A DNA stretch of 64,000 nucleotides, from contig OX388311.1 in NCBI GenBank assembly GCA_947579605.1, positions 27,716,951-27,780,950 of the forward strand. The letters run 5' to 3'. The translations under genes were made by a program, and so were the position numbers. The DNA comes from Athripsodes cinereus. Taxonomy: Eukaryota > Arthropoda > Insecta > Trichoptera > Leptoceridae. The notes under the pieces were generated by a model that saw only the letters and a program-made list of their open reading frames with translations, did no database searches and had not been told where the DNA came from. Numbering within the stretch: the stretch's first letter is position 1; the number at the start of each line of letters is the position of its first letter. This document shows, one piece after another, positions 9,210-57,890 of the stretch.

Positions 9210-9650
9210 TCACATTAAGGAATACACCCTTCTCCACCCATGGATGTTGTAGGAATGTCAGTTCCTATGTCATCCATACTCTTCAAGCAAATTCTTTCTA
9301 AGGAAGGGCTCAAGGTTCACCTGAAGGGTTATCCCCGACAAAATCCTCCCCAAAATTAAATATAACCTTTAATAATGCAATTTGAAACAAGTGTTCCTTT
9401 CTACTATTGTTTGTTAATTCGCAGAGAGACGTCTTTCGACTTATAAGGACATAATCAATCTGTATTACATATATCAATCTGATAATGACCTTATAAGTCG
9501 AAAGACGTCTCTCTGGGAATTAACAAACAATAGTAGAAAGGAACACTTGTTTCAAATCGCATTATTATGGAATTCTACTACGTGTGCACCGACACAATTA
9601 ACAACCTTTAATGTTCACCGACTCCTTTGTTTTACAAAGAAGATCAGCCG
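9210..9650 (-). repeat. right arm of the large inverted pair, interrupted
   Basis: Inverted counterpart of 7625-7820. It reads through CCACCCATGGATG, TGTCATCCATACTCTTCAAG and CCCCAAAATTAAATATAACC, then is broken by the insertion 9374-9602 and resumes at CCTTTAATGTTCACCGACTCC. The 10 bases AACCTTTAAT stand on both sides of the break (9364-9373 and 9603-9612) as a target duplication. A 74-codon frame across it (9077-9301) has no recognisable domain. Confidence 0.75.
9374..9602 (+). mobile_element. 229-bp palindromic element with hammerhead-like centre (family P, copy B)
   Basis: The element is bounded by an exact 10-bp target duplication (AACCTTTAAT). Two arms of about 85 bp are inverted copies, followed by a single-stranded tail containing TGGAATTCTACTACG and GTGCACCGACACAATTAAC. 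Both arms carry the ribozyme-like module. The plus copy at 9479-9511 reads CTGATAATGACC, loop, GTCGAAAGACGTCTC. The minus copy at 9422-9462 has TTGATTATG, GAAA, the palindrome AGACGTCT, H=C and a helix I of CAGA/TCTG. Tail and arms are shared with the copies at 29675-29735 and 48984-49140. It has no coding capacity, so it must be moved by another element. Confidence 0.85.
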
Positions 9651-9654
9651 ACCT

Positions 9655-10295
9655 GTCACCAGTTCGGTATCAAAATTAAAGACCATACTATTCACCAACA
9701 CTCTTATAGGTCTAAAGACTATTTAATGGCGCCTAAGCAATCATCATATGAAACAAACAAATCAGTTTAAATACTCTAACCATCCAGAAACATTTTCATG
9801 GTCGTATGAAAATTGTAAAAATCTTTTAATTAGATTAAAAATAGGAAACCATATAAAGATTAAAACTTAATCAATTCATATTTATTATAAAAACAGTTTT
9901 CCCTGATTATAATTATTATTTCATTTACAGAGACCATTTTGATGGTTCAGCGAACTCTATAGGGAAATTTAGAACTTAACGTGAATATATAAAAATAATA
10001 TAATAATATTAATAATATTTGGATCCGGTTGTGGGTATCAAAGGTTCATAATGTTATTATTATGGACGACATTTTATGTTGAATTAAAATTCACAAAATG
10101 GCGGTGATAATATTCTCTCGTACAAACAATACTAGTAGTATTATAATATTAACAATCCACTTACCGGACGTTGTGTTAATTTTTTATGATTACTTATAAA
10201 ATTATATTTGAAAAGCCAAACGGCTTAGGGCTAGGTACGTGTGTTTATTTTGTACCTTTATATTTCGATTATTAATTGCTATTTTGGGCTTTTCT
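9655..10295. other. unassigned AT-rich stretch
   Basis: Nothing recognised apart from short ATT/AAT-rich simple sequence near 10000. Confidence 0.35.
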
Positions 10296-10299
10296 ATGC

Positions 10300-10400
10300 A
10301 CAGTGGCGTATACTAATTAATTATTATTATTATAATTGGGACGGGGCTATGGTTTCAAACGAGCCCTTCCGATTCAACAGTTATCTCTTTCGTTTCGGTT
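10300..10400 (+). mobile_element. possible hAT-type terminus (CAGTGGCGTA)
   Basis: CAGTGGCGTATAC at about 10301 is the kind of terminus seen on many insect hAT elements. A possible opposite end (TACGCCACTG) lies at about 15942-15951, too far and too weakly linked to pair with confidence. Confidence 0.35.
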
Positions 10401-10734
10401 AAACATTACTTTATATTTACTGCGTATTATTACCACCTATTTTACGATCATCATTTTACGCACTAACTGGAACATATGCTCGTTCTGTCGATTTTTTATA
10501 CTCTTTATTTTCATTGCTTCGTTATTTTTTATTATCAGGGTCTTGTAATTAACAATCATACATAAAAAGAGATTTGTAAATATATCCCTATACAGCGATT
10601 CTTAAACGATGCGTTTTTTTGCACGTTTGACAACGAAGACTAAACGTTAAACACTCACACACTTGAGTATGATATGGTTTCATTCACAATATTACAATAT
10701 GTAATAGTATTTTTTCAAATTATCTTCCAGGGGC

Positions 10735-10890
10735 CGTAGACAAACCGTACTTAGCGATCGACTACTGGCGAACTTTTCGATAATCTACCTTCGTGTATCG
10801 TGTAATTATGCGTTATTGTTGCGGTTTTTGTCGAAAATTTGTCTGTAGTCTATCGCCAAGTGCGTGTTTATCTAGGGGGTCAGATCTTTA
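10735..10890 (+). mobile_element. MITE with GCGATCGACTAC inverted ends, copy 1
   Basis: Inner inverted repeat: GCGATCGACTACTGGCGAA with TTTTCGATAAT on the left, and GTCGAAAATTTG with TAGTCTATCGCC on the right. The flanks include ACAAACCGTACTTA and TAGGGGGTCAGATC. A second copy lies at 13085-13240 in opposite orientation, roughly 80% identical. No coding capacity. Confidence 0.75.
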
Positions 10891-11280
10891 AACAATTAAA
10901 TCATTCTTCATCTCTAAATACACGTTTTTTTATGATCTACTCTTGCTTACTTCCTACGTGTGACAGAGTTTATATCATTAACTCACCTTTTCTAAGATCA
11001 AATTTTTCCTCTTCGACATCTCTTGGTCTTCTACTAAAAACTCCAGGTTGCATTTATTGGTTCCTATCTAGCTGGTAAAATATGATCTGTTTATTGTTTA
11101 TTTTTAAATTTGTAATGTTGTTGAGGTCGATAACTTTCATTAATTTCAGATACCCTCATTCTTATAAGAACGTGGTATTTTTCAAAATGAACTAGGTATC
11201 TCTCATAAAATCAAGATAAACTGAAAAAAAACCAGTATTTAGTTAACACTCAAATGACTTTTGAAATGACCAAATGGGTA

Positions 11281-11345
11281 AGATCGAAAATATCGCGCTT
11301 CAGCGATAAACTCGCCCATGACACAAAATTATGTATTCAGTAGTA
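11281..11345 (+). mobile_element. LINE 3'-UTR hairpin ATCGC/GCGAT
   Basis: A stem of ATCGC (11292-11296) and GCGAT (11303-11307) is followed by AAACTCGCC, the same arrangement as at 22392-22407. This marks a 5'-truncated LINE 3' end. Confidence 0.65.
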
Positions 11346-11392
11346 ATGTTGTCATGTTTTTTTTCTTTGTATACTAATTTTGTACATTTTTT

Positions 11393-11500
11393 TTACGCAG
11401 CGGCAGAATTGTCATCCACACTTCTCAGCATTATAAAACCAGATAAGTCTCCATATGATCAGTCATGGTCATACAAAAACTTAACAGTCTAATTTTGTGC
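11393..11500 (-). mobile_element. LINE 3' UTR shared with the R2-endonuclease-like fragment
   Basis: On the minus strand this matches about 100 bp of the 3' UTR at 39590-39690, including GACTGATCATATGGAGACTTA-like sequence and GCTGAGAAGTGTGGATG followed by CAATTCTGCCGC. No coding part remains. Confidence 0.75.
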
Positions 11501-11534
11501 AATAAAGATTATTATTAAGTATTATAATTTTAAT

Positions 11535-11660
11535 TTAGTTCGCTAACTAGAATTCGGAGACTCTCGACTCCATAATCAGGCGATTAGAAAAAAGGACTTA
11601 ATTATAATCGCCTGATGATGGAGTCGAGAGTCTCCGAATACTAGTAAGCGAAGTTGATAA
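11535..11660 (+). mobile_element. palindromic element with hammerhead-like centre (family P, copy C)
   Basis: Arms of about 40 bp are inverted copies around a 15-20 base loop. Plus module 11608-11651: helix I TCGC, then CTGATGATG, stem GGAG/CTCC, GAA, palindrome TACTAGTA, H=A, helix I GCGA. Minus module 11540-11584: the same helix I (TCGC/GCGA) with CTGATTATG and the same stem. The plus copy has the canonical CTGATGA core, but the GAAA box reads GAAT. Confidence 0.75.
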
Positions 11661-11944
11661 AAGTCATTTGGAAGTTAACTCCATACTAACTATGTTTTTT
11701 CAATTTATCTTGAAATGGACTTCCAATAAGTACCTTCGGTCAATAATATCGAAACATTTTCATAGAATCTTCCACAAGTGGGTAGCTAGCAGATTAATAA
11801 CATACTCAAAAATATACATGTCACTTAATGCGTTCGCACAAAAAATAAGATATTTAGTGTTGGGGAATACATGATTGTTGAATTATTGCACATGTTTGAA
11901 TGTGTTATTAATTTGTGATATTTCACGAACAAAAATATTTTTCT

Positions 11945-11995
11945 ATAAGTTTTTAAAAGACATTTGAAAACTTATAGAAAGAGTCCTTTTTCATC
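11945..11995. repeat. small foldback repeat (family J, copy 2)
   Basis: Inverted arms TCTATAAGTTTTTAAA and TTTGAAAACTTATAGA followed by GAGTCCTTTTTCATC; see copy 1 at 7075. Confidence 0.55.
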
Positions 11996-12268
11996 AGCAT
12001 AGTTACGTCTCTGAGTAAAATTAACATTTAGCTTCTCTAGAAGTAGGTACTAGTATGTTTAATTACACATAGGTATTATTATAATATTGGCAATATCCAA
12101 TATTATAATATGTATGTATGTAGAGTGTGTGTATTTAAGTTAATGGTTTAATATTATATACCTGCATTGGTACGAACCTCTTACTTGTTTAGGATTATTC
12201 GTACAAAGTAGGCTATTTGAGTTTAGCATAAGTAATTTTGTACATATTATAGGTTCTATTAAGGTGCT

Positions 12269-12637
12269 GTACGTATTAGTGATGCAACGAATGTGTGATT
12301 TTGGATATTCGCGAATGCGAATATTGACTTGCTTAAATTTCTTTAATTGCTCAAACATTAAAATTTCTACCCCCCCATCGCCTAATTTCCAAAATGGTAC
12401 ATATAGGAGTTTAAAATATTTCAAAAGTTCTCGATTTTCTAAAAGAAATTTTCTTGCAGTACCTGTTTCTACAATGTACCGGGTAAGTATCCGGTACTTT
12501 TACCGAATATCCGATACTTTATTACCAAAATAATATTCGCAAAACATTCGCATATTTTTTTGCGAATACTTTGAAATATGCGAATATTCACGAATGCGAA
12601 AGCGAATACGAATATTCGTTACATCACTAGTACGTTT
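12269..12637. mobile_element. 353-bp hAT-like MITE with 8-bp target duplication
   Basis: The element 12277-12629 begins TAGTGATGCAACGAAT and ends ATTCGTTACATCACTA, a terminal inverted repeat of about 16 bp. Flanking octamers GTACGTAT (12269-12276) and GTACGTTT (12630-12637) differ at one base, which fits the 8-bp duplication of hAT transposons. Subterminal sequence is packed with GCGAATA/TATTCGC repeats, as expected for transposase binding. The interior has a poly-C run and short frames without domains. Part of the interior is shared, inverted, with 17705-17885. Confidence 0.85.
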
Positions 12638-12889
12638 AGTGTGATTAAGATATATGGGAATATAATACTATTTTAATATACAAATATTTGAAATTCCTCA
12701 ATAGATGTGTTTATAATACGAATAACCCATTTCTATGAATAATTTATTCATTAATATTCACCTTCATAGAATCATTTATTATGAAATATCTATGGATAGA
12801 ATTATAGTAAATCTGACTAGCAGAATAATTACATATAATAAACATGCAGGTCGAACTTTTCGTGTCTATAAAGTACAGAATTACATAAC

Positions 12890-12970
12890 GTATAAGATAA
12901 TTGACATCTTCAACTCTGCGATGAGGTAAGCAGCTACCCATCTGATTTTTTATTGGCGTAAAGAGGGAAA
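12890..12970 (+). repeat. W repeat fragment
   Basis: CTGCGATGAGGTAAGCAGCTACCC matches the middle of the W repeat (compare GCGATGAGGCTTGCCACCC at 44411), followed by TATTGGCG and AAGAGG. Both ends are missing. Confidence 0.55.
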
Positions 12971-13084
12971 AGTAACATATTTTTTTATAAATTTATTTAT
13001 TTTTTTACAGTCTTAACGGACACTTTAACACAATAAATGTTGACATTCAAATTTTCATCGAAAAATAAACCAATCCAGGTCCCG

Positions 13085-13240
13085 CGAATACCAGACCCCC
13101 TAGAGAAACACGAATTTGGCGATCGACTACAAACGAATTTTCGACAATAACTGCAACAAAAACGCATAATTATATGGTACATGTAGGTAGATTGTCGAAA
13201 AATTCGCCAGTAGTCGATTGCTAAGTACGGTTTGTCTTGC
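13085..13240 (-). mobile_element. MITE with GCGATCGACTAC inverted ends, copy 2
   Basis: Inverted relative of 10735-10890, better preserved. Its ends read TTTGGCGATCGACTAC and, on the other strand, AGCAATCGACTACTGGCG, with TTTTCGACAAT inside each. The 84-codon minus frame over it is not a gene. Confidence 0.75.
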
Positions 13241-13265
13241 GTTTGTAGCAAATATTAATATTTGC

Positions 13266-13304
13266 TAAAATAACTTTATTTGTCGGATATTTCAGGAGTC
13301 CAAG
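13266..13304 (+). repeat. short dispersed repeat, copy 2
   Basis: AACTTTATTTGTCGG and ATATTTCAGGAGTCCAAG; see 6043. Confidence 0.5.
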
Positions 13305-13555
13305 ATTAATAATAAATGTTAATGTATATTAACGTTATTTAAAAATAATTAAAAGCATGGAACAAGACTAAAACCATTAATATTAGTAATTAAAAATAAT
13401 ACGCCAATCATATCATTAAAATCAAATGTTAAGATTAAACTAATTAATTATTCATTAATTATTAATTATTCCGATGTGAAGCCTTTTCTTTTTTTTGATT
13501 ATGTCAATTTTTGTTATTTTTTATGGTATTCTTTTTTGTAATTGTTATAATAAAT

Positions 13556-13695
13556 ATTACCTCGATACGGGTGCAAATCCAGTGAGGTAATATTGAGTTC
13601 ATAAATGTGAATTTAAATAGTGAAAAAATGTTATACTCTGTTTTGTAAATATTTATTTTGGTAAATAAATTATTATTATTAAACAAAATACACAT
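13556..13695 (+). mobile_element. LINE 3' end with CCTC/GAGG two-tier hairpin
   Basis: CCTC, GATAC, GGGT, GCAA, ATCC, AGT, GAGG at 13560-13587 forms a two-tier hairpin with exactly the spacing of the copy at 25419-25446, but different stem bases. The sequence ends near 13680 in a TAAATAAATTATTATTATT tail. No coding sequence is left. Confidence 0.6.
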
Positions 13696-13699
13696 TAAA

Positions 13700-14550
13700 A
13701 GTAGCAAAATATCGAAACAATAAAATGAAATAAAGTTCTCTTCTTTTAAAATTACAAAATAATAATAAACAAGACAATTTATTTAGCGCTGTTGTGTGAT
13801 ATAAACCACCAAAAAGGCGCATTTTTAGTCATCGTTATTAACCTATTGCCAAAATTTCTACCGATTTTGAATATCAACATATTATTAATATTAATAAAAA
13901 TCTAAATGTGATTAAAATTATTCTTTGATTTTTATTTTTATTGGTTTTATTTGATTAATTGACAATTACAGTCATCAAATTTTAAACCATACGAATATGA
14001 AAAAAGCATTAAGGAAGATGCAATTATTCTACTGCTTACTATATGCTGTGATGGTAAAGTAGTAATAGATATTACTAAGTGTCAAGTAGGGTTACCGCAA
14101 TATTTCATTCTTCACGCATTTTGGTGTCTATAATATAGTATAGAAGATCTGAAGCATATTATTATTATTAGCCTTGAGGCGTAATATCTATATACCAACC
14201 TATAAGTATCTCTATCTTCCAATACGTTTTCAGATTACCCCACATCTTCTCTTCGAAACTTCCCAATATATATCTATATATTTTTTGTAATATTTCACTA
14301 ATTCAGACGAGAGAATTACGATCGTTTTTTTTTCATATTCCCAATCTCATTTTTTTCTCGAGCGACAAAATTTATGACGCGCAACGAAATTCGCACCCAA
14401 ATCGAATAACTTGCCAGTACCGAGAAAATATGATCAAATAAATATAATAATTCGTTCGTAAGTATGTATGTTTATCTATGTAGTTACATAATAATACATT
14501 TACCGATGTGTCCTTTATTCCCGGTCACACGGGTTGATTTTTAAATTATA
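13700..14550. other. unassigned AT-rich stretch
   Basis: No recognised coding or repeat feature. Confidence 0.35.
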
Positions 14551-14569
14551 TATTGAGTTTATTATCTTG

Positions 14570-14800
14570 ATCTAGAGTTTGTGTGTCCACATTGTGAAAA
14601 GACATTTTAAACATATTTGATATCAATAAAACACTGTTTTACTTTTCACTATTGATTTATCAAAACTCAAGCGCTTTCGTCAAGAAAAAAATTTCTTATA
14701 ATTAGTTCTCTTGAAAATGTCAAGCTAACTTGACGAAAGCGCTTGAGTATTAATAAATCAATAGTGAAAAGTAAAACAGTGTTTTATTGATATCAAATAT
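14570..14800 (+). mobile_element. 231-bp palindromic element with hammerhead-like centre (family P, copy D)
   Basis: Bounded by an exact 13-bp target duplication GTTTATTATCTTG (14557-14569 and 14801-14813). A tail (GTTTGTGTGTCCACATTGTG, shared with copy E) is followed by two arms of about 90 bp that are inverted copies through AAAACACTGTTTTACTTTTC and CTCAAGCGCTTTCGTCAAG. The plus module at 14708-14747 reads CTC, TTGAAAAT, stem GTCAAG/CTTGAC, GAAA, palindrome AGCGCT, H=T, GAG. The other arm keeps the GAAA and palindrome part but lacks the YTGA core. No coding capacity. Confidence 0.87.
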
Positions 14801-15007
14801 GTTTATTATCTTGGTTACTACTGTACTTACCTATTACTTTAGTACTTAAGAAAACACGGCATATCCCACAAATACGATAGTAAGCAGATCGGCCGCATAT
14901 AATAAAATACAAGCTGTTCTCAAAAACGAAAATGTCTGTGTTAACAAAAAATAGGTTTGGTAATCAATATTTAAAATTCAGCATTTTTGTTTCAATGTTA
15001 AATATAG

Positions 15008-15185
15008 AGTCCGTCGGTAGCTTGGAGGAAGAGTCTCGGTCTCATGCACAAGAGGTGCGCGGTTCGATCCTAGGTGCCGGCAAACTCCCCTTTCACGACA
15101 CAAGCTTTTTGCTTAGGTACTCTGAAAGATGTATAAGGTTGTATGTGGGTTAGTAACATAAACCCACATACATCTGTTTTTTTAA
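15008..15185 (+). mobile_element. tRNA-derived SINE, copy 2 (family S)
   Basis: The head GTCGGTAGCTTGGAGGAAG with B-box GGTTCGATCCTAG and acceptor-like TGCCGGC is followed by CTCCCCTTTCACGACACAAG and an end near TATAAGGTTGTATGTGGG. Several differences from the 46.8-kb copy, including a changed segment after the B box, indicate an older insertion. Confidence 0.85.
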
Positions 15186-15189
15186 AAGT

Positions 15190-15830
15190 ATATTTTATTT
15201 TACTATTTATATAGTAAAATAAGAGGAGATATTTTTATTCCATTGTCTTTATTCGAATTTCAAATTAATAATTCCAAATATCGCTAATTTGCAAATAGGT
15301 GCATACTGTAATGCAGGCTGATGAAAAAAAAACCTTATTGAACAAAAAAGATTATATTTTTCAATGACATTTCACTCCACCTCACTTCTTCATAAGCCCT
15401 TCAGTCCCTCACAAACACTGAGATCATTTCATTAAATGATAAGAAATGTTTTGTTCTTTTCTATAAGTGTTTCAAAAAATCATTAAAATCCTTAGTTTTG
15501 CCAAACGAAAAAAACTTAAAAAATACATAGCACATAAAAATTCGTTGTCTCATCGTCATTTACACATATTTTATTTAATTATTAATGTCTGTGTAGATCA
15601 TTTTACTATAGTTCAAACCTATTTTTTAAATTATCCTGTACTACTATTATTTACTAACGTATCGAATTGCTGAAAATATTTTAATAAAAGTTTTCATTAT
15701 GCCTCGAGCTTCACAGGGCGTAACACTAGTGTGTACCAACAACAACAACAACAATAATAATAATGTTTCATATTTTTGGTTTATTTGTAAGACGATTTCA
15801 ATATTATAACGGCACGTATACTCCATTATT
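15190..15830. other. unassigned stretch with (ACA)n
   Basis: A short ACAACAACAACAACA run near 15738-15752 and AAT repeats; otherwise nothing recognised. Confidence 0.35.
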
Positions 15831-15951
15831 TCGCATTAGGTGTATTTCGTATTATTTGCGGTGGTGGTTGCGAGAGAGTTCATTATTAGGTACTACCTAC
15901 TACTGCTACTTTTGGTGACGCCCGTGAAAATAATTTAAACTACGCCACTGA
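15830..15951 (-). mobile_element. possible hAT-like terminus
   Basis: The end reads TAAACTACGCCACTG, the complement of a CAGTGGCGTAG terminus, preceded by GGTGACGCCCGTG. No transposase or second end was identified nearby. Confidence 0.35.
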
Positions 15952-16284
15952 AAATTGGAAAATTATTTTTATTTGAATTGAGCTTGTTTTTATGAATATT
16001 CGTGCCTTGTTATTTGCGGTGCGTTTGAATGTTTATTTATGGGATTTTTTTTCGTTAATTTTTTTATCAAATGCTAGTACATAAGCTCTTTCCGGAGTAG
16101 AGTACGTATGTTTCACACCTTTTTCTGTACTATATCGAGTGTTCGGTTTTTAGAGAGTTCTGTAAAAGGTAGATAACATTTTTTTCCAATAACTCTCGTT
16201 CATAATATTTTTTTATAGTGACAATTATATTGGAATAAAGGTAAATAAACTGTTTTTTAAAGATGGATTTGATTTTTACAACAA

Positions 16285-16620
16285 GTTCAAAGTTTGACAA
16301 TGACCTCATAGGTCGAAACCTGGTAACTTATTTAACAAATAAATCAATTGTTGAAGGGTGTTTGTGTTCACACTGTGAAAATTCATATTCAATAATTTAT
16401 AAACAATCAAAACGCTGTCATATTTTCACCATATTTATTCAAACTCTAACGTTTTCGCCCACTTCAATGGGCATAAAGTACTCTTGAGAATGCCCATTGA
16501 ATTGGGCGAAAACGTTAGAGTTTGAATAAATATGGTGAAAATATAACAGTGTTTTGATTGTTTATAAATTATTCAACAAATAAATCATAGTAAAACCTAA
16601 AAACAATTATGTTTTCATTA
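16285..16620 (+). mobile_element. A-type P element (copy A2) disrupted by copy E
   Basis: Plus module 16290-16329: helix I AAGT, TTGACAAT, stem GACC/GGTC with loop TCATA, GAAA, near-palindrome ACCTGGT, H=A, helix I ACTT. Every paired segment is intact. The sequence continues TTATTTAACAAATAAATCA, is interrupted by copy E (16347-16574), and resumes TAGTAAAACCTAAAAACA, as in the copy at 4300-4340. Confidence 0.75.
16347..16574 (+). mobile_element. 228-bp palindromic element with hammerhead-like centre (family P, copy E)
   Basis: A 13-bp target duplication AACAAATAAATCA stands at 16334-16346 and 16575-16587. The tail (GTGTTTGTGTTCACACTGTG) matches copy D. Arms of about 90 bp are inverted copies through TTGATTGTTTATAAATTATT-like ends and ACTCTAACGTTTTCGCCCA. 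Plus module 16480-16521: ACTC, TTGAGAAT, stem GCCCA/TGGGC, GAAA, palindrome AACGTT, H=A, GAGT. The minus arm keeps stem, GAAA and palindrome but has lost core bases. Confidence 0.87.
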
Positions 16621-17095: not shown

Positions 17096-17103
17096 TCCTG
17101 TGA

Positions 17104-24492: not shown

Positions 24493-24697
24493 TTAGTTTT
24501 TAAGTGCCCTGTAGAAAGCAGTTATTCGTAAAATTGAAGACATTCAAGATCTTCTGGCCAGCGACGAGTTATGCAATCCATTTTGAATGTTCAATTTTAC
24601 ATTGGCTGGACCAGGACGACTTGCATGTTTCTTACATGTAGTTAGTCTTCTGGCTGCCCTATTTGTGGTAGATGCCATGGTGGTAAAGATAGATAAA
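24493..24697 (+). repeat. W repeat
   Basis: TTTTTAAGTGCCCTGTAGAAAG, GACTTGCATGTTTCTTACATG (a GCATGT/ACATGT-type hairpin), CTTCTGGCTGCCC and GATGCCATGGTGGTAAAGAT identify a nearly full-length but diverged copy. A short TAGATA tail follows. Confidence 0.75.
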
Positions 24698-32825: not shown

Positions 32826-33217
32826 AGCCTGGTGATGAGAGTGGAAACTTATATTTAAATACTTTGATATCTTATTTAAGCGGAAGCTCTTGAAAGCCGG
32901 ATCGTGATCAATACCTAAAGTCACAGAGAAAGTACTGAATGTAAAGTTTAATTTATCCACCGACGGTTCTTGGTGGAAGTTCATATTAATAATTTTTAAA
33001 ATGAAACACAATATAATTATAGTTATTCCACTATTGACTTTATTTATTTTTGCGAGCCGGCTTTCAAGAGCTTCCGCTCTCATCGTTAGGCAAAAGTAAA
33101 GTCTTTTGCCTGACAATGAGAGCGGAAGCTCTTGAAAACCGGCTCGCAAAATAAATAAAGTCAATAGTGGAATAACTATATATTGTGTTTCGTTTTAAAA
33201 ACTGCTACTGAATATAA
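32826..33217 (+). mobile_element. P element array with three hammerhead-like modules (copy F)
   Basis: A perfect-looking long palindrome (arms of about 95 bp, 33000-33200) carries a module on each strand. Plus 33104-33151: helix I TTTTGC, CTGACAAT, stem GAGAGC/GCTCTT, GAA, palindrome AACCGGCT, H=C, helix I GCAAAA. Minus 33048-33095: the same helix I, palindrome AGCCGGCT, with CTAACGAT as core. A third, plus-oriented module at 32826-32903 has about 35 bp inserted inside helix II. TACTGAATGTAA (32933-32944) and TACTGAATATAA (33206-33217) may be the target duplication. The mix of direct and inverted copies recalls the terminal repeats of Penelope-like elements. Confidence 0.8.
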
Positions 33218-37538: not shown

Positions 37539-38620
37539 TCATCATCATCATCATCGCCCTCAACGCTCCTCTCGGGAGCACAGGGCAGAAACCAGCCTCC
37601 TCCATTCAGAGCGTCTCTGTGCCAATTGCGTCACCTCTTTCCACGACATTCCTTGCGCTCTGATATCGTTGTCATAGGAACGGTGTATTGTGAAAGAGGG
37701 ACGCCCGGGCCGACGGAACCCCTGCGGACGGAAAAACAGTGCTCTTTTTGGCCAACTATCATTAGGCATTCTCAAAACATGTCCCAGCCAGGACCATCGT
37801 CTCTCCTGTATTACGGAGATTACAGGTCTCTGCTGGGTGCGCCGGCGCACAGAATCATTTGTAACATGTTCATACCATTTGACATCCAAAATCCTTCTAA
37901 GACACCTGTTTTCAAAGCTTAGTATCTTCCGCTCTTGAGCCTTGGTTAAGTGCCAAGACTCACAGCCATATAGAAGGATTGGGATGATGCACGCATTGAA
38001 CAAGCGACATTTTGTCCTGATGCTGAGTCCAGACGCCTTCCAAACTTTGTTCATGTTATTGAAAGCCCCACTAGCTGCCCCTATGCGGATTGGTAATTCC
38101 GATCGGAGATCACCCTCTGGCGTTATGGTTGCTCCCAGGTACCTGAATTTGCTAACCTGAGATATTTGGGAATTACCAACTATTAGTGCTGTGTGAGTAC
38201 TCGTGCATGTACTATTACATATGTACTCCGTTTTACCAGCGTTGATACGAAGGCCAAGGCGCAAGGAATTTTCATAAAGAGCATTAGCGTTGCACTGTAA
38301 TCCATCCACAGATGTATCAAAAAGGGCTAGATCATCCGCATATTCAAGATCGTGCAGCACTCCCACAGACGTCTCACTGTTTTCACGCTGTGATAAAGAC
38401 ACACCGCCAGGGCCCAGAATAGATTTTCTGAGCAGGTAGTCCATAATTATGGCAAAGATAAAAGGTGCCAATACACAGCCCTGCCGGACTCCAGTGGTGA
38501 TCCTGAAGGTGTCAGTTGGACCACTTGATGTTCTGACAGAACATTCAGAGTCCATATGCAGGGCTTTGATCATGGTTACCACCTTGGGCGGGATGCCATA
38601 CGCGGCCAGTAAGGTAGAGT
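37539..38620 (-). pseudogene. RTE-like LINE reverse transcriptase, 5'-truncated but still open
   Basis: About 350 codons without a stop lie on the minus strand, within a 384-codon frame (37560-38714) whose first 31 residues are flanking DNA. In order: A-Y-G-I-P-P-K at residues 38-44, R-Q-G-C-V-L-A-P-F-I-F (77-87), the catalytic Y-A-D-D (125-128), L-G-L-R-I-N-A-G-K-T (153-162), F-R-Y-L-G (190-194), L-L-Y-G-C-E-S-W (247-254), R-W-S-W-L-G-H-V-L-R (306-315) and W-R-R-L-V-S (371-376). These are the palm, thumb and C-terminal signatures of RTE-type reverse transcriptases. The endonuclease and fingers are missing. The 63.7-kb copy reads L-G-R before its stop; here TTA is TGA, ending the protein three codons early. 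The 3' end is a (GATGAT)n tail. Confidence 0.93.
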
Positions 38621-38719
38621 AACACAAGAAAATACGTTTTAAGTTTCTTGTTGTACGGTCACACAATTCCATAGTACTTCTAGGTATGTGTTGCATTAGG
38701 ACAGTTCTAGTCAAACAAT

Positions 38720-46790: not shown

Positions 46791-46841
46791 GGATATTAAA
46801 TTCGTAAGAAGTGATATGATTGGACTGAATAAACTAAGAGT

Positions 46842-47020
46842 TCGTCGGTAGCCTGGAGGTAGAGTCTCGGTCTCGTGAACGGGGGGTCCGTGGTTCGATC
46901 CCAGGTGCCGACGAATTCCCCTTTCACGACACAAGCTTTTAGCTTACTGTGAAAGGTGTATAAGGTTGTATTTGGGTTTATAACAAAAAACCCAGATATA
47001 TCTTTAAAAAAAAAAAAATT
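46842..47020 (+). mobile_element. tRNA-derived SINE, full-length copy (family S)
   Basis: The head 46844-46912 still has a tRNA-like acceptor stem: GTCGGTA pairs with TGCCGAC (one T-G pair). It also has an A-box-like TAGCCTGGAGG and a B box GGTTCGATCCC at 46892-46902, the internal pol III promoter. The body contains CCCCTTTCACGACACAAGC, CTTACTGTGAAAGGTG, and a 3' hairpin TTGGGTTT, ATAACAAA, AAACCCA-type before a poly-A tail. About 175 bp. This is the best copy of the four to five in the window. Confidence 0.9.
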
Positions 47021-48971: not shown

Positions 48972-49518
48972 TTTTGTTTTCATTTTATTCACTGTGTCGG
49001 TGTTTGGGTAGTAGAATTCCATAGCAAAATAAATAAAAAAAATGTTTTATTCTACTACTTATTTGTTTATTTGACGAGATAGACGTCTTTCGTCTTGTTA
49101 GGACATTGTCGTCAAATAAACAAATAGTAGAATAAAACATTAGCTGGATACACACGTAAAGATAAATCTCACCGATAAATCGGCAGATAAATTGGTTTAA
49201 AATATCGTTAAGATAAATCGGTCTTTTGACACTAACAAGCAAATTTATCTAAGCGATTTTGTGTCACCAATTTGTCGGTCAGTAAATTTGGTACATGATT
49301 GTATGCTGAACAGTATTGCATCACAGATAAATTGTACCAATTTATCTGTCACCATTCATGACCAATTTATCGTTGATCTTTCAGTTTTTATAGACAACAC
49401 TAACCTGCAGATTTATCTCTAAGATTTGACAAATCAAAGATATATTGTTCGAATTGTACAGAGAAATCTTTCCGTGTGTATCCAGCTATTAGTTTTATTT
49501 ATTTCGTTTTGTTTTCAT
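48972..49518 (-). mobile_element. B-type P element (copy G), carrying a nested MITE
   Basis: TTTTGTTTTCAT occurs exactly at 48972-48983 and 49507-49518 and may be the 12-bp target duplication. The tail GTGTCGGTG, TAGTAGAATTCCATAG matches copy B. Arms 49041-49075 and 49105-49140 are inverted copies. The minus module at 49073-49113 reads GACAATG, stem, GAAA, palindrome AGACGTCT, H=A. One core base is missing. A 348-bp MITE (49141-49488) sits just after the second arm. Confidence 0.65.
49141..49488. mobile_element. MITE with TIR TAGCTGGATACACACG
   Basis: TAGCTGGATACACACG at 49141 and CGTGTGTATCCAGCTA ending at 49488 are perfect terminal inverted repeats, extended with one mismatch by TAAAGAT. 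The terminal TA may be the target duplication, suggesting a Tc1/mariner-like partner, but ATT is an alternative reading. The interior is rich in GATAAAT/ATTTATC direct and inverted repeats. No coding frame. Confidence 0.88.
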
Positions 49519-50160: not shown

Positions 50161-50199
50161 TTCACTTTTTTATTACAGTTTCATTACAGTCTTAAGCCC

Positions 50200-50345: not shown

Positions 50346-50361
50346 TGACAAGCAATAAGTT

Positions 50362-50751: not shown

Positions 50752-50935
50752 TTGGAGGCTGTGGCAGAGGGCAGAAGACTGGTGGGCCGTCCTAGAAGAA
50801 GCTGGCAAGGGCAGGTGTAGAACGGCTTGGTTTGGAGTGGTCAAAGGTCCAGGAGGCAGCGGTGCATAGGGATCTCTGGAGGAGGTACCTAGGCGCAATG
50901 GGCCCCAGACCCAACTAGGACAGGGGGAAGAAGAT
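50752..50935 (+). pseudogene. RTE-like LINE C-terminal fragment with frameshift
   Basis: The frame first reads V-A-E-G-R-R-L-V-G-R-P-R-R-S-W-Q-G and shifts near 50817 to E-R-L-G-L-E-W-S-K-V-Q-E-A-A-V-H-R-D-L-W, ending TAG at 50916-50918. G-R-P-R-x-S-W then E-A-A-x-x-R-x-x-W is the usual end of a second RTE subfamily. A GAAGAAGATGGATGGATGG tail follows. Confidence 0.85.
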
Positions 50936-50939
50936 GGAT

Positions 50940-51450
50940 GGATGGGCTTGTAAATATTTCACGGTTTTATCATTATGTATTTCAATTTTGAAGCCAGGTC
51001 TCATCGTAAGTTTAATGATTTTGGAGGGCATGCAGTGCTTTTTTGCATGTATGGAAAGCACATCACTAGTTGTTGTAGGTATATTTACTTTCATCGAAAT
51101 ATGACAAAATTGAAAAATAATCATATTTCTGACGTCGCATATCGTGATCCGAGAATTCAAGGTACAATATTAGAAATCAAATCAATAACAAATTTAAATC
51201 TAAATAGTATGCTTCGATATATACCTATCAAATATTTCATCCGTGAAATGTGAAAATTTGGGAGAAGATAGATAGATCGACATTACCAATAATTTTTCAT
51301 ATCTAAAGCGTGTATTCCATCATAGTACATTGAATTTTGTCACATTCAAATAGGTTTAAAGGTGTCTTTACTCTTTAATGTTTTCTAACATATATTTTTG
51401 CTTTATTTTAAGTTATCGTCTCTTTAAATATAACAAAGAAATAGGTATAA
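50940..51450. other. unassigned stretch
   Basis: A 92-codon plus frame (50975-51253) has no recognised domain. Confidence 0.3.
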
Positions 51451-51454
51451 CTTC

Positions 51455-51690
51455 TTCTTCTCGTGCCGTATCAGGTCTTCCCGACGTTGGCAATCACTCT
51501 GGCGAAGGCTTCTCTATCTTGCGCGATCCGGAACAGCTCCCCCACATGTCTCATCCCGGTCCAGTCTCTTATGCTGCGCAGCCAAGATGTTTGCCTTCTA
51601 CCAGGACCATGCTGCCCCTCAATCTTCCCCATCAGTATCAGTTCGACCAAACTTTACTTATCGCCCCGCAGAACGTGACCCCGTATAACC
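51455..51690 (-). pseudogene. RTE-like LINE C-terminal fragment
   Basis: The minus frame reads G-H-V-L-R-G-D-K, stop, S-L-V-E-L-I-L-M-G-K-I-E-G, then G-R-R-Q-T-S-W-L-R-S-I-R-D-W-T-G-M and A-Q-D-R-E-A-F-A-R-V-I-A-N-V, with TGA at 51471-51473. The tail is GGCACGAGAAGAAGAAG, as at 2697-2712. One internal stop; otherwise well kept. The 112-codon plus frame over it is only its antisense. Confidence 0.87.
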
Positions 51691-51729
51691 AGATAAACCA
51701 AATCATTCAAAATTAATTTAATTGTATAA

Positions 51730-51790
51730 AGATATCAAGTTGGCTGGAAGAAATTGCGTATGTGATAAGCCCATCTTTAAGCATTTCTGT
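51730..51790 (+). mobile_element. LINE 3' UTR scrap (TTGGCTGGAAGAAATTGCG)
   Basis: AGTTGGCTGGAAGAAATTGC, GTATGTGATAAGCCC is a worn version of the hairpin UTR whose common lepidopteran form starts TTGGCTGGAAGAGATCGC. Confidence 0.5.
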
Positions 51791-52654
51791 TTTAGTGATA
51801 AAGTTTGTATAGTTTGATATGCAAACAAGGATTTTAGAAGGAAGGAGAACTCAAGGAATTATTTATTTATTCAATCAAAGGGCTGGCGACTATGCTTTAT
51901 ACACATGACCGTTAATTTTATCGGTTGAAACTATAAACATGGGGAAAGATTTACGTAACTGACGATGTAAAAAAATAAATAAATAAATAAAGATATTGAA
52001 GGAAGAAGTAGGCAACATTTATATTCAAGCAGAAAATAATATTTTTAAGGTGAAATTGTGTATATGGCAGATTTTGAATTGAGATAGAGATAAGAGGAAC
52101 AATTTTCATTCTTTCGGTCCGACACATTTCAATTGTTTTATGACGACAATTCCTTTCTTTCTCTACTTGCTGTTTAAAAACAAAACCACCTATCTACTAT
52201 AACAAATGGTTACAGCAGGCGACATCACGTTGTTTCTATTATTGCTTCTGTGACTATACAACACTAACTCGTTAAAGTTGTCGAGAAGGAAAAAATAAAT
52301 AACAATATTATTATTTTTGTTGTCTTGAAAAAAAAAGATAAAAACGAAGGAAATTTCATTTAAATGTTACCGCTGTATATACCTAGGTACAAAAGCGTAA
52401 ATAATACTTTGTCTCAAATTGTAAATAATTGTAATGACATTATTATTTTACTAGTATTTAAACCTGTACTGAAGATACTAGTTATTACATGTCACAAATG
52501 TTTGTAACAAATTTTAAAACAGTTAGTTGTAAAGCCACATTTCCACTGGCTTAGAAGATAGTGCTGCGATAAGAGTTTAACCACGTAACGATGCCCTATG
52601 CGGGATCAATCGTAAGGTGAATGCTATACATTTATACAATTGACAGCTATCTAT

Positions 52655-52705
52655 TTTAGTCTATTCTTTTTAAGACCATCCACTCGTTTCCGAGTGATTT
52701 AGGAA
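52655..52705 (-). mobile_element. LINE 3' hairpin CACTCG/CGAGTG, inverted
   Basis: CACTCG, TTTC, CGAGTG at 52681-52696; on the minus strand GATGGTCTT and an AATAG-rich tail follow, as at 2290. Confidence 0.6.
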
Positions 52706-52709
52706 TAGT

Positions 52710-54125
52710 TTACATTTCCCTCTTTTATTTATTAACACATTAATCTATCAAAAAAACATTCCTTTTTACATATCAATATATTTTTTAGTATTTTTCTAAT
52801 AAATCTCAATATTTTTCTGTTCCACCTCCTTACTATATTATAATTTTTTTGACACACTACTAATCATAAAATGAAAGTGGAAAGGCAAAGGGTGTGAAAG
52901 AAGAATAAATATTATTCAACAGATACTTCATTTGCACAAACAGCCTTGTGCAAACTGCCTTTAGTAGGAAACATGATAATATACAGGAAAGCATCTGTTG
53001 AGAATATTCTTAAGAACTTCATATAATATGCAAGTGTGAAAAAATGTGGTAAAATGTGAAAAAAAAACGTATCAATTTCAAGATTTAGAGGAAATATACA
53101 TGACAAAGATATTACCTTAATTTTCAAGGATTTCATTATAAATATTATTAATTTTTTGCTATAGCATGAAATTTTAAAGTAAAATTCATCATATTTTTTT
53201 TAAATCTGGTAAAATTTGTTGTCCTCAATTATTAAAATATTTTGTCATAAAAAAAATAGATAAAAAAAAATATAGTAACATTTTGGGTAATCACAGGTCT
53301 TAGTCTATAGTTAATAAAACTTATATTTATTATGCTTTGATTCTTTTTGTGGGCCAAAGAAAATATTTTTCAAATACCTAGGTTTATTTTAAAAACATAT
53401 TAAATTGTATTATTTAGATTATTGTATTATTGTACACTTGTTATTGAAAATATTGTAAAAAATCTAATTGTTAGAGGTAAAATTCATGCATTTTGACAGT
53501 TAAACAGAGATGAAATTTTATGGTTAAGAAGAAGAATGCAAGTTGTAATACTTGAAGTTTTTCTCAACATAGTCTTTTCATATTTCTTTTTAGAAGAAAC
53601 TCGAGCGTTTAAATAATTTGCAAAAACGCATGGAATTCGCGTAGTAAATCAAGGGATACAGGAAAAGAGTCTGTATACAGGTTTTTTTTTCTTACCATGC
53701 CAACAACAGGTGAGTTCTATTAAAAAAAAAATCATGAACCTTTAATTCGTATAATGTATAGGTAATCATCTATGTACATACAAACCTACTAAAATATTTT
53801 TAAACTTTCATTTTTCTTTGCCTACTTTCTTAAATAACACAAAAATAAATTCAAGTTTTCTTCGGTATATTTATTTTGCAAAATTTCTCAACATTACAAA
53901 TTCAAGACTTCAAAGAAACGCTTTTTATTTTTATTTTTTGTAAAATCTAACGAAACGTTTTTAATTATTCACTTGTTTAAATATCATGTGATTGTTCCTC
54001 GTTTAATACAATTCTTTTTTGTTTGAAAATTGATCATAATGAAAGTTCATATTTTTTTTATGTGAAAGTGTTTTCTTTATTCAGAGCGTTTGAAATGTCG
54101 TGAATCTGTCGCATGGAATCTAGGA
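52710..54125. other. unassigned AT-rich stretch
   Basis: Long A/T runs; no recognised coding or repeat feature. Confidence 0.35.
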
Positions 54126-54130
54126 AGTGA

Positions 54131-54163
54131 GTTTTTTTTTACCCAAATACAACCTTATTAACA
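54131..54163 (-). mobile_element. tRNA-derived SINE, 3' scrap
   Basis: TTTTTTTTTACCCAAATACA followed by ACCTTATTAACAGTAAG is the inverse of the SINE end (CTTACTGTGAAAGGTGTATAAG with GGTTGTATTTGGG). Confidence 0.65.
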
Positions 54164-54169
54164 GTAAGT

Positions 54170-55840
54170 ACACCGTCCTTACGACAACAACATCGGAGCG
54201 TCAAGAAGTAGTGACTCAATCGGCGCAAAGGCATTCTGAATAAAGAAACCTCAATCCTGACAGTATTTATTTGAAAACGGACAAACTAAAATAATACGCA
54301 TTAAATACATAAAAAAAAACTCAAAAGAGGATGAGGAAATATTAAAATCCAAACCTATATATAAAAATAAGTTTAACATTTTCCCTTTCAATTTGCTATA
54401 CTTATTATGATAAAATTCGTCCTTACATATTATATTGAATGTCTCTGAAAAATTTGTCAACGCAGCAGTAAGTATTTTGGAGAAATATTTTTGTATAAAA
54501 TACGAGGAAAGCGCAAAGTGAGGATTCCCCACGACGCTTTATTATAATATTATCATATCATATTATATTCGTGACTTATTTTGGTAACATATTACCCAAA
54601 ATATTTATTTTAATAAAACAAATCAATAAAAAAGACACGGGGAAATGATGAAACTGGACAGAGCGACAAAAAATACCTACATGGTTGTTTCGAGACGTTG
54701 CCGTCTGAAAATTTAATGGTTTGACTGTGTAGATCAGATCCTAAAGTACAAACATTTCAGAATCCGCTCTACATGGTCAATTAAGTAAAATAAACAGGAG
54801 AGAATGAATGAATCAACCTTTCAGTTAATGTACTAAAAATTTAAGCTTTGACAATTAAATACCTATGAATGGTTTGAGATCGAAGATGGATGAATTCATT
54901 TTTAGTAAAATGTCAAAAGATACTAAAAACTTATTGAATTTTGACTGCTTACAATACTTACTTCGAATTATTTAAATACCTTTTGCGTAAACTTCATAAG
55001 ATTCGTATTAATTTCATTTCATTATGATTTTCGTATTGAATGATTTACAGTTCTTATTTCAATTGATCGTATTGTGATGTTGCTAATTTTATAATATTGT
55101 TGTTTTTTCAATCTTCTTTTTATGTTTTAATTTATATGTATGATAATGTTTCTTTATATGTAATTTTTTTTAATGTTCTTGTATGTAAACACGTAAAAGT
55201 CTTATTGCCCTATATAGTAAAAAAAAGATACGACTACATTGGAAAAAACAGTTTTATAGAACTTAACACAAATAATAACTGCATAGGTACCTACCTATTA
55301 AGTTAAAAAAATAAAATATTTGGTTTCTTCCGATTTCAATACTTATACTTTGTTTATGTTAGAAAATGAATTTAAATCACATTTTTCACGCAAAAAAATT
55401 TGGCGTGTATTTTGAATAAAACATTGATAAAAATAGTGTTAATAGTTTTCCATATTTGGCCATAGTTACTTTGTTCTATGTATGCGGTTGTAATAATAAG
55501 ATTATCATTGAAGATCGCTGACTGGACAATGAAAAAGACATTTTGTCCAACACGTCCCAACCACAGGCACTATATAAAAGAAACCAACTCTATATATCTA
55601 CAATCGACCAATATACATACATATATCATTACCATTTTGCAAACATGGGAAGTTTTCTGTGTCCACATAAAAATAATATTATCTAGGCACCTACAATTTA
55701 TCGTTAAGTTGTCAATAAAAATAGTAAGAAGAATAAATATCTTGCGAACTGAAAATAATAGATCATTTATTTCATTTTTTATGTTCTTGATTATTCACTG
55801 CTCATTTTTTCCCAATAATTTACTAAAACGAAAGCCCATC
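54170..55840. other. unassigned AT-rich stretch
   Basis: Open frames up to 131 codons (55478-55873, plus) show no domain; the last part of that frame runs into a W scrap, so a gene is unlikely. Confidence 0.3.
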
Positions 55841-55844
55841 CATA

Positions 55845-55895
55845 CAATCAGTTTGCTGGCTTGTGGAATATAGCGAGATGGTATGATTAAATAAA
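55845..55895 (+). repeat. W repeat, 3' scrap
   Basis: TTTGCTGGCTTGTGGAATATAG, CGAGATGGTATGATTAAAT. Confidence 0.5.
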
Positions 55896-55899
55896 AGAA

Positions 55900-56795
55900 C
55901 ATACAGTTATGTTAATAATTATTTATACTGGGAATGTTAGCAGTTAGCAGAGGCGGCTGGTCTGCTGGACTAGTGGGGGTGCGATGGAATTATAAAAAAA
56001 TAACTTCGTTTAAAAAATGTCGATTCCCTTTTTTATTTCCATTAATCAAAAGAAATAAGCACGCATTGTATTTCATAAAGAATCAAGCATATATTATTGA
56101 AGCATTTTTTGTTGGAATATGATAATTTTTTTTATTACAGTTATAAGTTAAGTAACAGATTATACTCAGTATAAACACTTTACGTTACAAAAAAAACATG
56201 CTACAACTCATAGTTTGAGAAATAAAATAAAAAAATACCAAGAAGATAAAATAAAATGTTCTACTCTATAGTATCTCCCTATAGAATCTTCTTTTTCTTT
56301 AATGTTCATAAAAATTCACGAATCAATATTGACTTTGTTAAAGGGGATGGCTACCGTAAACTATGTCAAAGATATTTCCCTTGCTTCATTTGAATATTAA
56401 TGGTCCAATTAATTAAAGAACAAAATAACTTAGTGGCGTCGTCGGCGCGCGTCGAGATGCTTCGAAAAATTCCAAATTAAAGTCGATTTTATAATAGTGC
56501 GTGTAAATCAAACGAGAGAGAAATAACCATTAATTTTTTATAATATTGTGATGAAATAAAAATATAAAGTATTTTCAAATTAGTATACTTTTAATAATTA
56601 ATGTTTCGGTTTTATATTTTCATGGTACAATTAATGTAATTAAAAAATAATAAAAATCAGCCATTGTATAAAATGTTAACTGTTTATGTAATAAAAAATG
56701 GAAAATTTATTCTTACAATATTTACCATTGTCTTAGGTGTTAAACCTTTATTTATCCATTTGTTTTATTATCCTTGCACATTATCATTCACATAA
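55900..56795. other. unassigned stretch
   Basis: Nothing recognised apart from AT-rich sequence; a small GC-richer patch (GTCGTCGGCGCGCGTCG) lies near 56438. Confidence 0.35.
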
Positions 56796-56799
56796 CAAA

Positions 56800-56905
56800 A
56801 TCAACAAATCATTTTAGGCACATAAGAAAAAATATGATGATATATTATGCAGTGGCGAGATTGTCACTATATAGTGATTTTTTTCTATCTAACCACGAAA
56901 ACGAT
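56800..56905 (-). mobile_element. LINE 3' end with TCAC/GTGA hairpin, inverted
   Basis: Minus strand: TGGTTAGATAGAAAAAAATC, ACTATATAGTGACAATCTCGCC and ACTGCATAATATATC, as at 39720 and 42952. Confidence 0.7.
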
Positions 56906-57124
56906 ATATAAAAACGTAACACACGAAAGTATCATAAAAGGTTTAAAAATGACAACGGCGCCTTATTTGGTTAAAGTACCTTTTAACTCACAGTTACCGA
57001 TCTTTCCGTGAGGCATGCTTTGTCTAATTACGCTACCGAGCAACGTATCGAAAGCTCATTAATTAATAATTATTATCTTTCCAAATAAGTGTATTCCCGT
57101 ATACCACATTAAATATTTTCCATT

Positions 57125-57262
57125 TATTGACAAGGTGGACTGACGCCCACCCTGATTGTCATATTTTTGTGGTAGAGAGGACGATTAGCATGTTTATTAC
57201 ACGCATCTAGACCACAGTTTATCCCACTTGTGGGAGATGCCGTGATGGTATAGATAGATAGA
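57125..57262 (+). repeat. W repeat, 3' half with (TAGA)n tail
   Basis: GGACTGACGCCCACCCTGAT, AGAGAGGACGATTAGCATG, TCCCACTTGTGGGAGATGCC, GTGATGGTATAGATAGATAG. The tail is TAGA rather than TAG. Confidence 0.8.
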
Positions 57263-57264
57263 TT

Positions 57265-57770
57265 ATCTGATACAGTTTCTCAATCGTGCTTACTTTATTC
57301 TAATTTTTCAAAGTTTGGGACCATTTTATATGTATAGGTATATCATTAACCGATGACTTTAAAAGTACATTGGTAATAATGTTATACTAATAATTTATTA
57401 TGTAGGTATTAAGAATGATATGAAGAGTTTTATTAAGGAAATTAATGATCTCTGAACATTTTCTCAAATTGTAATAAAGCCATCCATCAAAAAACCATTC
57501 ATGAAAAATGATTCCGTGAATCCCTTTTGATTTACCCCTCTGTCACTCCAAGTACTACTAAGATCAGGTTACATTCTCAAAAATATTTATTAAACGATTT
57601 TTCTATAAAATCGCCTTTAGATGCCTCTCTTGAGAACAAAGAGCGAAAAAAAGTGTTTTACAAAACAAACATTTTATTTTATTTGTTCTTAAAAATTATA
57701 TAAAATCATATTTTTAAGAACATATTGTTGATGTAAAGACATAGTATTTAAGCAACAACACGGCATGTTT
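57265..57770. other. unassigned stretch
   Basis: Nothing recognised. Confidence 0.35.
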
Positions 57771-57776
57771 AAACAT

Positions 57777-57890
57777 CAGTTTGAAAATAACTTTATTAGT
57801 CGAAACCATGTCACTGCTCATTAAAATCTTTTTAGTAAAACTAAATCCATTTTTTTCCATATATTATAAACATGAAGTTTTACAAAATTA
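57777..57890 (+). mobile_element. A-type P element, single arm (copy A3)
   Basis: Module 57777-57816: helix I CAGT, TTGAAAAT, stem ACT/AGT, GAAA, ACCATGT, H=C, helix I ACTG. Then TTAGTAAAACTAAATCCA and a TATATTATAAACATGAAGTT end with TTACAAAA. No inverted partner arm is present. Confidence 0.65.

Follow-up and report, generated by a model that had tools for sequence, protein, structure and literature searches.

The locus

The window analysed here is the whole 64,000-nucleotide stretch of Athripsodes cinereus (Trichoptera, Leptoceridae) DNA at positions 27,716,951 to 27,780,950 of contig OX388311.1 (assembly GCA_947579605.1, forward strand), and it carries repeated copies of a hammerhead-type RNA module, several of them paired in palindromes. 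These palindromes are very probably leader-only insertions of Penelope-like elements (PLEs), produced by two-ended copying and joined head to head, and the modules would be the hammerheads of PLE leaders. Five elements, A to E, are long inverted repeats with arms that are 83-97% complementary, and the modules at 16290, 57777 and 63339 stand singly, with no inverted partner. A first-pass annotation of the window had placed the modules in small palindromic elements; the palindromes are real, but they appear to be leader-only PLE insertions rather than elements of their own kind. In the following list, S denotes an end at the start codon of the PLE open reading frame (ORF) and L an end about 40 nt into the ORF; C3-G8 and U3-A8 denote the bases of the 3-8 pair of the hammerhead core.

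9374..9602, no strand: element D, read as a PLE insertion of the D family that consists of leader only; two head-to-head arms, the inverted S arm on the left and the L arm on the right
9364-9373 and 9603-9612: target duplication of element D, AACCTTTAAT, 10 bp
9479..9517, plus strand: D hammerhead module of the L arm; closing helix lost at the central junction
9422..9462, minus strand: D hammerhead module of the S arm; closing helix CAGA/TCTG, T at position 8
9564..9602, plus strand: D tail, running from end point S to end point L; MEFYYVCTDTIN from 9567 is the PLE ORF start (by eye)
14570..14801, no strand: element A; L arm left, S arm right; tail MSFHNVDTQT
14558 and 14802: target duplication of element A, TTTATTATCTTG, 12 bp
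14707..14748, plus strand: module A; CTC/GAG, GTCAAG/CTTGAC, AGCGCT, U3-A8
16347..16574, no strand: element B; L arm left, S arm right; tail MNFHSVNTNTLQQ
16334 and 16575: target duplication of element B, AACAAATAAATCA, 13 bp
16480..16521, plus strand: module B; ACTC/GAGT, GCCCA/TGGGC, AACGTT, U3-A8
16290..16329, plus strand: module F, single; AAGT/ACTT, GACC/GGTC, U3-A8
32945..33205, no strand: element C; L arm left, S arm right; tail MNFHQEPSVDKLN
32933 and 33206: target duplication of element C, TACTGAATGTAA and TACTGAATATAA, 12 bp with one mismatch
33104..33151, plus strand: module C of one arm; TTTTGC/GCAAAA
33048..33095, minus strand: module C of the other arm
11608..11651, plus strand: module E; TCGC/GCGA, GGAG/CTCC, TACTAGTA, C3-G8
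11540..11584, minus strand: module E of the other arm
48988..49160 (borders approximate), no strand: element G, a decayed relative of D; tail at left MEFYYPNTDTVN (minus strand)
49073..49113, minus strand: G module with a broken core
57777..57816, plus strand: module H, single; ORF start at 57872, MKFYKINVVNN
63339..63375, minus strand: module I, single; textbook core except for the extra U; ORF start near 63274 (minus), MNFHKVTTE

The common order ascribed to the modules in the first-pass annotation holds in 10 of the 12 modules with coordinates, as core, stem-loop, GAA, palindrome or near-palindrome and paired closing helix. It fails in 9479 (plus), where the closing helix is absent and the bases upstream belong to the junction, and in 49073 (minus), where the core is decayed. 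The individual motifs are somewhat looser than had been described: the YTGANRAT core deviates by one base in 9422, 11540 and 33048, the GAAA block reads GAAT in 11608 and 11540, and the 6-8 base palindrome is represented only by 7-base near-palindromes in 16290 and 57777. A is the commonest base at position 8, as had been noticed (A in seven, G in three and T in two of the 12 modules).

For the E element, neither a clear ORF start nor a target duplication was found. Its left arm (element at 11208-11760) is split by an insertion carrying a repeat at 11275-11317 (by eye). At 16290-16587, B was inserted just downstream of the older F module, and the duplicated target is part of the flank of F.

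The modules as leaders of Penelope-like elements

The 716-Mb assembly that contains the window was searched for PLE proteins. Of 1102 candidates for GIY-YIG, 150 were scored, and 86 of these were matches; 18 stretches were fetched around such matches (fetched loci are cited below by numbers of the form L001). Two PLEs, PLE1 (L042) and PLE2 (L043), have ORFs of 830 and 817 amino acids; both of these ORFs were scanned, and both exceed the Pfam cut-offs for the reverse transcriptase (RT) domain RVT_1 (37.4 and 59.9 bits) and for GIY-YIG (25.3 and 25.6 bits). The module sits upstream of both ORFs, 60-80 nt before the ORF, with the extra U and a palindromic helix III. It reads GCAC-CTGATGAT-GCG..CGC-GAA-ACCGGT-C-GTGC in PLE1 and ACTA-CTGAAGAT-GGG..CCC-GAA-AACGTT-T-TAGT in PLE2, both with the extra U, C3 and G8. 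The ORFs begin with MKCYKVNADTINE (PLE1) and MNFHSVTHIKLES (PLE2). The AUG arising from A9-U-G opens only a short frame in these two elements (by eye), and the PLE ORF begins roughly 80-105 nt further on.

The arrangement of the leaders is also that of PLEs, with leader units in a tandem array of period 2657 bp in L039 and inverted leaders in 18 unique head-to-head pairs. In L030, an I-type module adjoins a GIY-YIG match. The copies in the window hold at most the first codons of a PLE ORF: ORF-like starts follow modules A, B, C, G, H and I, the start in the D tail was read by eye, and for family J, found in the flanks of fetched loci, the start MNFKIF was likewise read by eye. Altogether, a PLE-type ORF start follows the module in nine of 11 families and was not seen for families E and F. 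Because the same module precedes RT/GIY-YIG ORFs and ORF starts follow the modules, the latter are identified from their sequences as PLE leaders (pseudo-long terminal repeats), families E and F solely by likeness. The first-pass annotation was thus right to point to Penelope-like elements.

Hammerhead structure and covariation

The first proposal of a type I hammerhead connectivity, in which helix III is palindromic and of dimer type, stands: three covarying helices surround a conserved core, with one inserted U. A loopless palindrome cannot form helix III within one molecule. The modules are described as hammerhead motifs on the basis of their sequence, and cleavage, alone or as dimers, is putative. 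Single-strand folding z-scores were mixed, from -3.45 to +0.95 in six sequences, and short modules are poorly judged in this way. The Rfam hammerhead families gave no match in the window at the gathering threshold or at E up to 5, and none in L042, L043, L030 and L095 at E up to 10; we suppose that these models expect a looped helix III.

A strict pattern scan of the window recovered only three modules, the pattern being too narrow. Because helices II and III vary in length, the GAAA block was out of place in some rows when all or mixed modules were aligned with MAFFT; hence the model was built from a subset of families and covariation was counted on hand-joined 32-mers. The covariance model, which had been suggested as a check, was trained on seven sequences (six window modules of four families and one PLE leader). 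It recovered the leader of the second PLE family, absent from the training set, with 27.4 bits (E 1.5e-5 in 252 kb), as well as window module 16290 with 19.7 bits (E 0.0014). On modules 9422, 63339, 9475 and 57777 it gave E values of 0.2-4, which is the noise level; these modules are supported by their place in PLE leaders.

The covariation of the helices was confirmed by three counts against shuffles. In the alignment fitted by the covariance model (27 distinct rows), 91.8% of cells pair versus 65.2% after shuffling, the covariation score is 0.684 versus 0.222, and for each of five measures the observed value was reached by none or one of 500 shuffles. In the hand-joined alignment (16 rows, the decayed module 49073 excluded), pairing is 90.9% versus 55.6% and the covariation score 0.896 versus 0.220, which none of 500 shuffles attained; two of the five measures had their observed value attained by 59 and by 50 of the 500 shuffles. 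Helix I varies on both sides in all four columns, with 96.2% (model-fitted) and 95.3% (hand-joined) of its cells paired. When each of the 11 families is represented by one copy, 43 of the 44 helix I cells are paired, versus a shuffle mean of 19.9 and none as high among 20000 shuffles, and ten different 5' strands occur; the picks (C from L053, D with an intact helix I, J from L004) favour intact copies in this count. Rows of one family share descent, so that the shuffles overstate independence.

The first-pass annotation had left a choice between a divergent and an inactivated lineage, on account of the extra U before helix II and of A at position 8. This choice mostly dissolves. The extra U, reported as consistent, is indeed invariant in 16 of 16 rows, where it creates an AUG in 15; it also occurs in the leaders of PLEs with open RT/GIY-YIG frames, and is therefore a trait of the lineage and not a sign of decay. 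As for position 8, the 3-8 pair is C3-G8 in six and U3-A8 in five of the 11 families (43 of 20000 shuffles were as high, the families not being independent). Since position 3 changes along with position 8, family by family, A8 is mostly no defect. The pair is missing in five of 16 single copies (33104, 9479, 9422, 11540 and J of L049), each of which has a paired sister copy. The D family carries U3-A8, and its scored copies besides that of the window are 97-98% alike over the L arm; to judge from this likeness, the family was recently active. When the tails are compared by eye, U-A families fall beside different C-G families (D beside PLE1, B beside PLE2), a hint that the 3-8 pair switched more than once. 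The C3G/G8C exchange of this pair gives partial rescue according to the available text of PMC11167929, and a limited literature search found no test of U3-A8.

Two end points and their pairing

The leader ends of PLE1 and PLE2 fall mainly into two narrow groups, at -9 to +1 (S) and +36 to +43 (L) of the ORF, which hold 16 of the 24 ends in PLE1 and 39 of the 44 in PLE2. Of the 13 remaining ends, some are truncations, and several look as though one group had run on. The D leader has its S end four bases short of the ATG and its L end 38 bases inside the ORF. Two groups of ends separated by about 40 bp, together with short target duplications of varying length, are what is expected of PLE tails. 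By analogy with the published PLE protein (PMC11167929, as far as its accessible text goes), S and L may be the start sites of reverse transcription.

The ends appear to be paired according to a simple rule, one S with one L. Head-to-head PLE pairs numbered 20 by script, or 18 after L021 and L033, which repeat L015 and L012, were dropped. The combination is directly S plus L in 15 of these 18. Two more, L040 (scored L plus L) and L046 (scored S plus S), are composite; taken at their outermost ends both are S plus L, with duplications of 12 bp, and this brings the rule to 17 of 18 insertions, two of them after re-reading. For the D family, 40 L arms were scored from 1348 first-look candidates; one is the copy of the window, and the other 39 were fetched. 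A second D arm is present in 34 of the 39, and it ends at S in all 34 and at L in none (the S end of L066 was missed by the motif and found by later scoring, and that of L094 lies one base outside the S range). In a sample blind to the ends, collected by the core pattern only, seven of eight loci were S plus L (L001-L005, L007 and L008; L005 with a deletion in its L arm), and the eighth, L006, is mixed. In the window itself, elements A, B, C and D are each S plus L with target duplications.

Target duplications, centres and arms

The target duplications of the D insertions score at least 9 bp in 26 of 33 scored, and mispaired flanks give a mean of 0.155 and at most 1. The scores range from 5 to 17, and for four insertions none was found. 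The duplications of the PLE pairs, measured by script, are 8-13 bp in most.

The centres at which the two arms meet are individual, with 22 distinct among 23 readable. The only equal pair, L060 and L065, shares its flanks and represents one event or a duplicate. The L arms stop at AGATTG or GATTGA (adjacent bases), three or two bases upstream of the core, in 27 of 39 cases. The cleavage site is crossed by every one of the 39 L arms and by at least 28 of 33 S arms. None begins precisely at it, and two S arms begin within two bases of it (the script for arm starts underrates gapped arms, e.g. L076). Because most arms cross the cleavage site to one upstream point, they would mostly be copies of uncleaved leader RNA. 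The L-arm stop is the A of TTCAGATT, a sequence that presumably resembles the insect initiator. This stop is read as the 5' end of the RNA, which makes the A of TTCAGATTGA the candidate start of the D leader RNA.

Two insertions are mixed. In L006 one arm belongs to the C family (by eye) and the opposite arm to the D family. The S side of L082 begins as D leader, which within a few bases gives way to a T run and transfer RNA (tRNA)-like sequence of the short interspersed nuclear element (SINE) type (by eye). Each of these two would agree with a separate template for either DNA end, or with jumps between templates. Variants within the arms, which bear on whether one RNA or two served each insertion, were sparse, only four columns having a variant in at least two arms. 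In columns 48 and 51 four loci are discordant, in column 5 L071 is concordant and L062 and L088 are ambiguous, and in column 40 L060 is discordant and L094 one-sided.

Two further observations concern single D insertions. In L008, around 1271-1583, the inner part of the arm is repeated several times near the centre, and the first 48 bases of L080 hold a piece or the whole of a second D copy beside the insertion.

Discussion

PLE leaders, two preferred ends combined as S plus L, target duplications, individual centres and helix covariation can be read from the sequences, and the following course of events would account for them. The PLE protein would cut both strands of the target, the two cuts being staggered by about 9-17 bp. 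Reverse transcription inside the leader RNA would then be primed by both 3' ends, by one at S and by the other at L, and both complementary DNAs (cDNAs) would usually read across the uncleaved hammerhead as far as the RNA 5' end. The cDNAs would finally be fused head to head, and their centre would hold filler bases or microhomology. The order of these events, the two separate priming events, the RNA 5' end as the stop and any activity of the ribozyme are putative. Because the same inverted leader is found on PLE copies that have a body, the palindromes may be regarded as a short outcome of the ordinary PLE reaction.

Several observations weigh against this interpretation. The scheme is derived entirely from DNA sequence. 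Six of 33 D insertions lack a duplication of 7 bp or more, L013 and L032 are without one by script, and the PLE duplications lack a mispairing control. The L032 pair does not follow the rule, L040 and L046 follow it only on re-reading, and five of 39 D copies (L068, L082, L084, L092 and L093) have no second D arm. Moreover, the 39 D copies were picked by likeness to the L arm, so that S plus S insertions could not appear among them, and the end-blind sample comprises only seven D loci plus the PLE pairs. The centres of palindromes may also alter after insertion. Finally, an autonomous D element was not found, none of the 39 fetched D copies running into an ORF, and the machinery that would have moved D is deduced from PLE1 and PLE2.

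The alternative that survives best, though we consider it improbable, is that the palindrome is a small non-autonomous element, the whole of one hairpin RNA being copied by PLE enzymes, with S as the RNA 5' end and L as the start site. The abundance of D insertions (1348 first-look candidates, 40 scored), their likeness and their consistent S plus L ends are what such a unit would give, and the stop of the leader arms mostly at one point agrees with it as well. However, a unit copied whole should not have a distinct centre in 22 of 23 cases, nor S arms cut back to various points when the L arms mostly are not. The arms of two families in L006, the SINE-like passage on the S side of L082 and the presence of the same inverted leader on PLE copies with a body are also at odds with it.

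Self-priming, in which a single cDNA folds back on itself, is slightly less probable still. It has been proposed, from antisense templates, for rotifer Penelope elements (PMC3846280, in the text available), and the complementarity of 83-97% between the arms of window palindromes A-E, as well as the many self-complementary centres, would suit it. A snap-back product, however, should end in L plus L and not at S, and this mechanism predicts neither arms of two families (L006) nor the S plus L rule. Four loci whose arms disagree at recurrently variable sites would also tell against it, but are too few to carry much weight.

Retrozymes, i.e. tandem hammerhead repeats moved as circular RNA, are a very improbable source. 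Type I hammerheads do occur in such repeats of invertebrates, insects included (PMC7229834, available portion), but no tandem array detected in the window overlaps any module, and the copies stand head to head, cross the cleavage site and begin PLE ORFs. DNA transposons with terminal inverted repeats (foldback elements or miniature inverted-repeat transposable elements), whose hairpins would have no RNA function, can practically be dismissed: long inverted repeats flanked by short duplications recall them, but the ends are neither equal (a fixed difference of about 40 bp in 34 of 34 two-armed D copies) nor flanked by duplications of fixed length, the helices covary as in hammerheads and the tail is the start of a PLE ORF. 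Chance hairpins were rejected.

Two-ended copying of PLE leaders is in line with the biochemistry of the Poseidon PLE of Anolis carolinensis (PAc; Frangieh et al. 2024, PMC11167929, cited here from the accessible text). The PLE protein cuts and extends both DNA strands, starts reverse transcription at two adjacent internal sites of the RNA and also inserts RNA whose ribozyme is dead (PMC11167929). As here, the hammerhead of PAc lies at the border of leader and ORF, and the interval of its two start sites equals the tail of 30-40 bp, as does the interval between S and L. PAc differs in that its ORF start codon lies at stem II, whereas the PLE ORFs here start well downstream of the module, and in that its commonest start is 111-118 bp into the ORF, whereas the ends here lie at the start codon and at about codon 13. 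The available part of that paper contains no description of leader-only palindromes.

The Penelope elements of rotifers (2013; PMC3846280, in the portion available) share the 5' inverted leader, the palindromes at the inverted junction, a tail (31 bp, optional on one inverted leader) and target duplications (8-10 bp). They differ in that several solo leaders have no duplication and that self-priming was proposed, not two-ended priming; the word 'hammerhead' is absent from the main text of that paper as available. The hammerheads known from PLE repeats (Cervera and de la Pena 2014, via accessible text of PMC6155905 and PMC6431247) are likewise minimal, usually without helix III. The dimeric hammerheads of newt satellite and viroids (PMC6155905 and PMC3088659, in part) have the same very short, often palindromic helix III and perform better as dimers, but they belong to tandem satellite or viroid RNA and not to PLE leaders.

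PLE hammerheads, inverted leaders and tails were thus already known. The additions made here are the measured rule of paired ends, leader-only palindromes whose junctions can be read, the use of RNA that was not cleaved and the families with U3-A8. No description of leader-only palindromes of the S plus L kind was found in the available text of PMC7229834, PMC3088659, PMC3846280, PMC6155905, PMC6431247, PMC12910113 and PMC11167929, and no claim is made that they are unpublished.

Many finished insertions with readable ends, duplications and junctions bear on the largely open question of how PLEs integrate. The S plus L rule fits the reported two start sites and cutting of two strands, and it would explain inverted leaders and one-sided tails. 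Templates that were mostly used without ribozyme cleavage bear on the role of the hammerhead in PLEs, and the natural C3-G8 and U3-A8 cores are material for testing the 3-8 pair. We give an even chance to a broader proposal, namely that PLE integration is obligatorily two-ended, with a dimeric protein and one start site per DNA end, that the palindromes are its abortive, body-less outcome, and that in actively spreading families the 3-8 pair underwent compensated switches between C-G and U-A. If so, every complete PLE insertion should carry exactly one S and one L end.

Other repeats in the window

A perfect tandem array of period 97 (six copies, 100% matches) lies at 8191-8776, and a decayed 60-bp tandem array at 1888-2235. 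The repeats at 14999-15115 and 46830-46946 form a tRNA-like, SINE-like pair, 85% alike; similar sequence, inverted and with a T run, follows the S-side start in L082 (by eye). RT-like open frames, non-LTR (long terminal repeat) in type by eye, occur at 37560-38714 (minus) and 4491-5141 (plus). A dispersed repeat family that carries GGTAGCCAGCAGACC is found on both strands, e.g. at 24588, 40811, 44438, 57153, 61806 and 62876; some of its copies end in TAG or TAC runs, and it is perhaps a SINE or the end of a long interspersed nuclear element.

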